From positions 1 through 64,000 of the forward strand of contig CALICM010000002.1 of the NCBI GenBank assembly GCA_938049225.1: 64,000 nt of DNA, in the 5' to 3' direction. The first letter of the stretch is position 1, and the number at the start of each line of letters is the position of its first letter. The notes beneath the pieces are model-generated. The model had not been told where the DNA came from. It saw nothing but the letters and a program-made list of their open reading frames with translations, and searched no databases. Both the position numbers and the translations under genes were made by a program. The DNA comes from an uncultured Paracoccaceae bacterium (lineage in GTDB: Bacteria > Pseudomonadota > Alphaproteobacteria > Rhodobacterales > Rhodobacteraceae). Below, one piece after another: positions 9,067 to 23,578 of this stretch.

Positions 9067-9260
9067 AACTTGATGTGAAGGGTTGTGAACGGTTGCCGCG
9101 TTTCAATCAAGCCTGAATTTTATCACAGATAAGGCAGTGGCCTTTGTTTGCGGAAAATTGGTATGCTGTGGGATACCTTGAAAGCAATGAGGTACATGAA
9201 CAAAGTTCAATGCGCGGTTTGCGGATACCACACCCTGGCGCTGCATGCTATTGCAGCAAT

Positions 9261-21889: not shown

Positions 21890-21982
21890 GGCGCGACCTC
21901 CGTGGCTGAACAGGGGTTCAGTGATAGGGGGGCCAGGCCGGGCGGTCAATTGGGGCGCGGGGATATGATCGGACATAGAAAA

Positions 21983-22003
21983 GGCCAGCCCTTGAGGCTG
22001 GCC
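21983..22003 (-). terminator. Hairpin terminator of the 22025-22303 gene
   Basis: GGCCAGCC-CTTGA-GGCTGGCC followed by TTTT on the minus strand. Confidence 0.75.
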
Positions 22004-22024
22004 GTTGAGGGGGGAGAGAGGGGT

Positions 22025-22303
22025 TTAGTAGAACCCGAAGCCTTTACCGATGATAAAACCCTTGCCGACGTATTTTTTGGAGGCAAAGCCTTTGCCGTAG
22101 AAACCTTTTTTGAAGGCCTTCTTCTTGAAGCCACGGTGGCCGTGGAATTTCTTGAACTTCACGTCCTGGGCATAGAACGTGGCAAGATCCGCTTGATCGA
22201 CACTTACGGTTACTGCTGCTGGGGCCAAGTCGGTGGGCTGAGTGGCGGCGGTGGCGGCGAAGGGGACGGTGGCGATCAGAGCAACTGCGATGAGGGTTTT
22301 CAT
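22025..22303 (-). CDS. Secreted Lys/Gly/Phe-rich small protein (copy 1)
   Basis: MKTLIAVALIATVPFAATAA leader; C-terminal KKFHGHRGFKKKAFKKGFYGKGFASKKYVGKGFIIGKGFGFY; AAAGGAA ribosome-binding site. Confidence 0.75.
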   Translation of the reverse strand: MKTLIAVALIATVPFAATAATQPTDLAPAAVTVSVDQADLATFYAQDVKFKKFHGHRGFKKKAFKKGFYGKGFASKKYVGKGFIIGKGFGFY

Positions 22304-22354
22304 GGTGTGGTTCCTTTGGTTGGTTATTTGTTCGCGTCTTCGATGAGAAAGATA

Positions 22355-22371
22355 TATGAACATTGTTCATA
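22355..22371 (-). promoter_or_regulatory. Operator TATGAAC-ATT-GTTCATA within the -35/-10 spacer
   Basis: Minus strand: TTGCAT - 17 nt containing the palindrome - TATATC. Confidence 0.65.
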
Positions 22372-22428
22372 ACATGCAATGCACATGCGTGTGAGCGGCT
22401 GTAACGCGAATGATACGGGTAAGAATCA

Positions 22429-22455
22429 AAAGGCCAGCGCTCGGCGCTGGCCTTT
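22429..22455 (-). terminator. Hairpin terminator of the 22480-22713 gene
   Basis: AAAGGCCAGCGC-TCG-GCGCTGGCCTTT, 12-bp stem. Confidence 0.78.
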
Positions 22456-22479
22456 GTGTGGCGAGAGGGGGGAGTGGCT

Positions 22480-22713
22480 TCAAAAGAAGAACCCGCCTTT
22501 GAATTTCTTGCCGACGAACTTCTTTTTCGCAAAGCCACCATAATAGCCCTTTTTGAAGGCTTTCTTTTTGAAATGGCCGTGGCCGAATTTGACCTGCTCG
22601 ACGCTGAAGTCCGCCTGGGCAGTGGCAACAGCGGGACTGGCAAGGTCCTGAGGGGTTGCCGCGGCAGCAAGGGGCAGAGTGGCGATCAGGGCGGCGGTGA
22701 TAAGGGTTTTCAT
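22480..22713 (-). CDS. Secreted Lys/Gly/Phe-rich small protein (copy 2)
   Basis: MKTLITAALIATLPLAAAATPQ leader; GHGHFKKKAFKKGYYGGFAKKKFVGKKFKGGFFF; paralog of the downstream gene. Confidence 0.75.
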   Translation of the reverse strand: MKTLITAALIATLPLAAAATPQDLASPAVATAQADFSVEQVKFGHGHFKKKAFKKGYYGGFAKKKFVGKKFKGGFFF

Positions 22714-22763
22714 GGTGGGTTCCTTTGGTTGGTTCGTTGTTCGTGTCTTCGATGAAGAAGATA

Positions 22764-22780
22764 TATGAACGCCGTTCATA
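22764..22780 (-). promoter_or_regulatory. Operator TATGAAC-GCC-GTTCATA within the -35/-10 spacer (second copy)
   Basis: Same promoter layout as 22355-22371: TTGCAT - 17 nt - TATATC. Confidence 0.65.
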
Positions 22781-22853
22781 ACATGCAATGCACGTTGAGA
22801 CACGGGAGGGTGAGCATGGTGAAATACGGAATTTAGGGCGCTATTGTCTTGGA

Positions 22854-23578
22854 ATGGATGTGTTTGGGTCAGCGCTGCTCGATTATCAAAGTGGGGAGCG
22901 GGACCATCAAATCTCGATCAAACGGGGCGATGGGTTTGTGGATCAACACAGCCCGGGCCTGTATTTCGCAGCTGACCCACAACGGCATGAGGCGGGGGTT
23001 CTTGGTCGGGTTAAGGGCCCCGTTCTTGATATTGGCTGCGGCGCTGGGCGGCATGTTTTGCATTTACAGCAAGCAGGCGTCGAGGTGGCCGGCGTCGATA
23101 CTTCCGACGGTGCCATCGAGACCTGCCACCTGCGGGGTGCGCGCGTGTCCTACGCGGGAATGTTTTGGAGGCCGGTTTTGCCGCAGGCAATCGCCTTGGG
23201 TTCGAGCGTTTTCAGACCGTTTTGCTGTTTGGCAACAATATTGGGATCGGTGGAACCCCTGCGGGTACGCGGAACCTGCTCAGGAATATTCACCCTCTTC
23301 TCTCAGACAGCGGCCGCGTGCTGGTGACGTCATTGGATGTGACGCAGACATCAAACCCGACGCATCGCGCCTATCACGAAAGCAATATTGCCGCCGGTTT
23401 GCCGAAAGGCCAGATTTCAATGCGACTTGAGTATCGTGGACGATGTGGCCCCTGGATCAACTGGCTACACCCCCAACCGCAAGAGCTTGAGGCATTCGCA
23501 CAAGATACCGGTTGGCGGATTGAGCTGGTTCGGACCTATGATACAGGCGTCTACGCGGCGGTGCTTGGTCGGGCATAG
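22854..23578 (+). pseudogene. SAM-dependent class I methyltransferase, frameshifted
   Basis: Frame 1: ...VKGPVLDIGCGAGRHVLHLQQAGVEVAGVDTSDGAIETC; continues in another frame from about 23155 as NVLEAGFAAGNRLGFERFQTVLLFGNNIGIGGTPAGTRNLLRNIHPLLSDSGRVLVTSLD. Confidence 0.75.

Follow-up and report, generated by a model that had tools for sequence, protein, structure and literature searches.

Two orphan mini-protein genes of a Rhodobacterales genome carry the putative operator of a TetR-family repressor encoded beside pspA

Two short genes lie in tandem on the minus strand of the 64,000-nucleotide stretch of DNA analysed here (the window), and they raise the question of what their unusual products could do and under whose control they are made. 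As the first-pass annotation had described, each gene encodes a leader followed by a Lys/Gly/Phe-rich tail. Mini-protein 1 (22025..22303, minus strand; from the ORF list and from comparison with copy 2, in the distribution of differences over codon positions and in pN<pS) is a 92 aa protein in which the leader MKTLIAVALIATVPFAATAA precedes a basic K/G/F/Y-rich tail, and mini-protein 2 (22480..22713, minus strand; from the ORF list and its alignment to copy 1) has 77 aa and the same architecture; the two are 66% identical across the alignment, leader and tail included. Both begin with a Sec-type leader with a hydrophobic core, which places them by prediction in the exported class, and rule-based cleavage, placed after ATA/AAA close to residue 19–20, would leave mature proteins of 58 and 73 aa with a net charge of +9/+10 and a pI of 10.1. 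The tails are of low complexity, with K, G, F and Y accounting for 78–84% of residues. AlphaFold returned no confident structure (mean pLDDT 50, pTM 0.11), and the mature proteins may be disordered as far as prediction goes, the evidence being weak because the input alignment held only two sequences. No curated family in Pfam, NCBIfam, PHROGs or the PDB was matched above cut-off, which bears out the earlier statement that no characterised family could be recognised; a weak match to UrcA stayed below its threshold (12.6 bits against a cut-off of 25), and a search of Rfam gave no RNA family match.

The duplication extends well beyond the coding regions. It had been proposed that the whole transcription unit was copied, and a promoter-operator, a ribosome-binding site and a hairpin terminator are present at each gene. 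From GTGCATTGCATGTTATGAAC onwards the two units align almost perfectly, across the -10 element, the 5' UTR and the ribosome-binding site as far as the start codon, and the match picks up again at the hairpin terminator, where a GGCCAGC...GCTGGCC hairpin forms the 3' end of the copied unit and is followed by T tails at both genes. The promoter GTGCATTGCATGTTATGAACnnnGTTCATATATCTT is identical in both units except for the 3-nt centre of the operator. All of these elements are on the minus strand: the promoter-like sequence of mini-protein 1 (22351..22379) has a -35 element TTGCAT at 22374–22379 and a -10 element TATATC at 22351–22356, and that of mini-protein 2 (22760..22788) has the same hexamers at 22783–22788 and 22760–22765, with 17 nt between them in both cases. 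A consensus promoter scan gave no score to TTGCAT-17-TATATC, the hexamers being weak against the E. coli consensus; the promoters are therefore called from their conservation between the copies. Between the -35 and -10 elements, the textbook position for a repressor site, lies a palindrome: ATGAACAATGTTCAT at mini-protein 1 (22356..22370, core TGAACNNNGTTCA at 22357–22369) and ATGAACGGCGTTCAT at mini-protein 2 (22765..22779, core at 22766–22778), so that an exact copy stands in the promoter of both genes. The ribosome-binding region AAAGGAACC is likewise conserved (22309..22317 and 22718..22726), and a terminator scan located intrinsic terminators at 21979..22003 (fold -18.5 kcal/mol) for mini-protein 1 and at 22428..22455 (fold -22.2 kcal/mol) for mini-protein 2.

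The same palindrome is found at loci in which a TetR-family gene is linked to pspA. On contig C8 of this genome, in a tetR-pspA-yiaAB locus, two sites fall between tetR and pspA and a third lies 14 bp ahead of the tetR ATG. TetR is the linked regulator at this locus, where a pspF-like ORF was not noted. Of 397 sampled genomes of the family, 88 carry an ortholog of this TetR. The palindrome occurs in 29 of the 30 best tetR loci (109 exact sites in 106 kb against 0.085 expected) and in all 80 named GTDB tetR-pspA loci, including those of Ruegeria, Leisingera, Phaeobacter, Litoreibacter, Roseovarius and Thalassovita (289 exact sites against 0.34 expected); the expectations come from shuffles that preserve base composition only, and the excess is nonetheless several hundred-fold. 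In 64 of these 80 loci (L194–L273) four operators are arranged alike: a single one precedes tetR, and the other three stand between tetR and pspA at spacings of ~23 and ~35 bp. This footprinting, from which alone the palindrome is assigned to the pspA-linked TetR, argues strongly that it is the operator of that repressor and that tetR is autoregulated. The GAAC/GTTC halves had suggested LexA/SOS-type control, an idea that was abandoned, as the N3 spacing is constant at the tetR-pspA loci and is not known to fit any LexA arrangement. The cross-species evidence comes from the tetR-pspA loci, the mini-protein promoters being comparable only within this genome. Since the mini-protein genes carry the putative operator of the pspA-linked TetR, the two genes very probably belong to a wider TetR-controlled, PspA-centred, phage-shock-like envelope-stress regulon. 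Of the earlier reading, the tandem copying of a whole transcription unit, the basic/aromatic/glycine character of proteins with an export leader, the operator in each promoter and the lack of a characterised family are supported; the idea of a free-standing undescribed system is not, the operator being shared with the tetR-pspA locus. Read in this way, an orphan low-complexity gene pair gains a place in an envelope-stress response that can be put to the test.

The further targets of the switch are in keeping with an envelope function. In 18 tetR-bearing relatives, the other genes preceded by the palindrome encode nearly exclusively membrane, lipo- or exported proteins: a Ser/Ala/His-rich exported protein with DUF2145, DUF5671 membrane proteins, large multi-pass membrane proteins, small membrane proteins, a PLDc_N membrane protein, small lipoproteins and exported proteins. 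A strong hydrophobic segment is present in 16 of 18 target products compared to 62 of 134 background genes (p = 5e-4, indicative only, as the background is a crude set of long ORFs from the same loci and the window), and the remaining two products start with a signal-like or Tat-like N-terminus; L190 and L192, which have no convincing downstream gene, were left out of the count. The Ser/Ala/His-rich protein and DUF2145 form an operon on contig C71 of this genome (L093 7791–9009) with two operators 53 bp apart, and both the arrangement and the spacing are found again in G378, G314 and G377 (L176–L178). This operon, present also in G339, resembles the mini-protein genes in placing a small exported low-complexity protein under TGAACNNNGTTCA; the Ser/Ala/His-rich protein differs from the mini-proteins in composition and sequence and is widely conserved. 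As a separate observation, a small membrane protein gene with tandem operators stands directly before a murB-like gene in L174 and L184, hinting at a link between the TetR stress switch and cell-wall synthesis.

In comparison with known phage-shock responses (PspA/PspF-PspBC and LiaFSR-type), the proposed regulon likewise has a PspA/IM30 gene amid co-regulated membrane and exported proteins. It differs in its likely regulator, a TetR-family protein acting through TGAACNNNGTTCA and not PspF, LiaR or PadR, and in its partners, which are YiaAB-like and DUF2145 proteins. The families at C8 and C71 are TetR_N (PF00440) with TetR_C_33, PspA_IM30 (PF04012) and DUF2145, YiaAB scoring slightly under its cut-off. 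TetR, YiaA and DUF2145 are unmentioned in the 2024 survey of Psp systems by Ravi et al. (PMC11237479), and no description of a TetR-PspA regulon was found in the literature searched, which lay outside most subscription journals; a TetR-controlled PspA regulon with orphan effectors is apparently undescribed. The PspA-linked TetR is of the same family as a regulator of solved structure, PDB 3cjd (profile E 4e-86, full length). That entry is described no further than as a TetR family regulator, and no paper on its function was found in the literature searched; for the PspA-linked protein an operator and a regulon are proposed here. The PspA regulon across Rhodobacterales would thereby gain a precise operator, a regulator with a solved relative and a list of membrane and exported targets, most of them uncharacterised.

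A course of events can be proposed on this basis. The TetR-family repressor encoded beside pspA-yiaAB would bind TGAACNNNGTTCA, and at the mini-protein genes its position between the -35 and -10 elements would block RNA polymerase. Envelope stress would release TetR, and pspA-yiaAB, the DUF2145 operon and the mini-protein genes would then be transcribed together. The mini-proteins would be exported by Sec and lose their leaders, giving short, strongly basic and presumably disordered chains with aromatic residues every few positions, which may bind or coat the anionic surfaces of the envelope, be it membrane lipid, LPS or capsule, and form a protective layer outside the cytoplasm. This last step, drawn from composition, is put forward tentatively, with a likelihood somewhat short of even; the complete explanation, in which membership in the TetR-PspA regulon is combined with an envelope-protective role, is considered moderately probable. 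PspA/IM30 proteins are responsible for inner-membrane protection and remodelling (PMC8281802). A bolder version would make the mini-proteins the extracytoplasmic arm of a phage-shock-type response: disordered Lys/Gly/aromatic proteins that arose in one lineage, came under a conserved TetR-PspA switch and, by condensing on an envelope that has been damaged, seal or shield it from the outside while PspA works inside. In that full form the proposal is speculative and rather unlikely.

The same composition allows other roles, and the surface-binding, polyanion-binding and assembly roles put forward in the first-pass annotation stay conjectural. The mini-proteins might be self-assembling surface or biofilm-matrix proteins, produced under stress, in which aromatic residues act as stickers and Lys/Gly as spacers; their ligands would be polysaccharide or extracellular DNA. 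The dominance of four residues in the tails and the lack of a confident globular structure would suit such a role, as would their confinement to one genome, a trait of fast-evolving surface proteins; however, no gene for outer-membrane secretion or assembly is linked to them, and composition by itself cannot tell matrix binding from envelope binding. This role is regarded as unlikely, though with an appreciable chance of being correct.

It is less probable still that they are secreted antimicrobial (bacteriocin-like) peptides directed against competitors, with PspA co-regulated since membrane-active peptides stress their producer. The mini-proteins do resemble cationic Gly/aromatic-rich secreted peptides of antimicrobial or matrix function in composition and size; this likeness is compositional, and no sequence match was found in the libraries searched. 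Their short, highly charged aromatic/Lys/Gly tails behind a leader, the duplicated genes with diverging tails and the fact that PspA homologs protect membranes would all be compatible with an antimicrobial. Yet Sec export in a Gram-negative cell stops at the periplasm, no dedicated exporter, maturation enzyme or immunity gene was seen beside either copy, and induction upon envelope damage would be self-harming.

An envelope-stress role in the PspA regulon also presupposes that the palindromes at the mini-protein genes are sites for the pspA-linked TetR, and not sites that are fortuitous or bound by another TetR-family protein, which would leave the genes unrelated to pspA. Similar operators are possible among TetR paralogs, and lone sites may arise by chance. 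The 4.0 Mb genome holds eight exact copies of TGAACNNNGTTCA, compared to one for a reversed control pattern: two at the mini-protein genes, three at the C8 locus, two at the C71 DUF2145 operon and one elsewhere in the window (C2:9197). This third window palindrome (9197..9209, plus strand) is followed after ~55 nt by two thioesterase-like ORFs and one for a MATE-like transporter; because the reversed control also yields one site per genome, it could be a chance occurrence, and its membership in the regulon is uncertain. The window as a whole contains three exact palindromes against 0.03 expected from dinucleotide shuffles. Two perfect sites in the same promoter position among only eight in the genome, with three more at tetR-pspA, make a different or fortuitous binding partner very improbable, and a similar site stands at a paralog of the mini-proteins on contig C9.

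That paralog is one of two distant ones in the same genome, of 95 and 126 aa, which share the mini-protein leader and have basic, Phe-containing tails. The promoter of the 126 aa paralog reads TGAACGTTGTTCG-TATATC, with one mismatch to the operator. The two paralogs are adjacent (L009 4011–4796, G000:C9) and have a KxLQxNHKINPxYGSK motif in common; the second of them has the one-mismatch operator and possibly another near-site ahead of its start. Beyond this genome, BLAST and profile searches of 101, 249 and 377 sampled genomes returned no relative, the matches being noise or leader-only; 386 pattern matches in GTDB contigs included none, and none was found in the plasmids and viral contigs searched. 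The first-pass annotation had named the absence of the same leader-plus-tail architecture from related genomes as counting against its reading, and on this point the result went against it, the only other carriers being the same-genome paralogs. At the sensitivity of these searches the mini-proteins appear to be orphans confined to this genome. The congeners G001, G002 and G003 have 1, 1 and 0 palindromes, and no mini-protein was detected in these three; the TetR ortholog is absent from G001, the one congener tested. At the loci of the neighbouring aminotransferase ortholog in G001 and G003 neither a mini-protein gene nor an operator lies within 1.5 kb, and the flanking genes are not shared.

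The duplication itself is old. Differences between the two genes by codon position 1/2/3 number 22/16/44, giving pS 0.74 and pN 0.24, and in the 21-codon core of the tail pS is 0.88 and pN 0.09. As synonymous sites are near saturation, the copies must have separated long ago, and the low pN relative to pS indicates that both proteins, low-complexity tail included, are under purifying selection. The promoter-operator is better conserved between the copies than synonymous sites are. Plus-strand ORFs antisense to the genes were rejected because the differences between the copies follow the minus-strand codon phase. Such selection, together with two same-genome paralogs, marks the pair as real genes; that they are non-functional ORFs whose tails arose by chance in GC-rich DNA is hardly credible, since the lack of homologs beyond this genome is outweighed by low pN, third-position bias, the conserved ribosome-binding site, promoter and terminator, and the two further paralogs. 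The pairing of a conserved switch with these orphan genes suggests that new secreted proteins, restricted to single species, are brought under stress switches that are themselves conserved.

Two minor observations concern other small ORFs and the flank of the pair. Genome G355 has at least four near-identical small ORFs (L275, L281, L283 and L285) with a leader, MKTLIASAL, similar to that of the mini-proteins; they were rejected as relatives, their tails being unrelated and the operator absent, and they constitute another multi-copy family of small exported proteins. Adjoining the mini-protein genes, a plus-strand methyltransferase-like gene (window 22788–23578) is split over two frames at ~23160, which suggests a frameshift, by way of either a pseudogene or a sequencing error.
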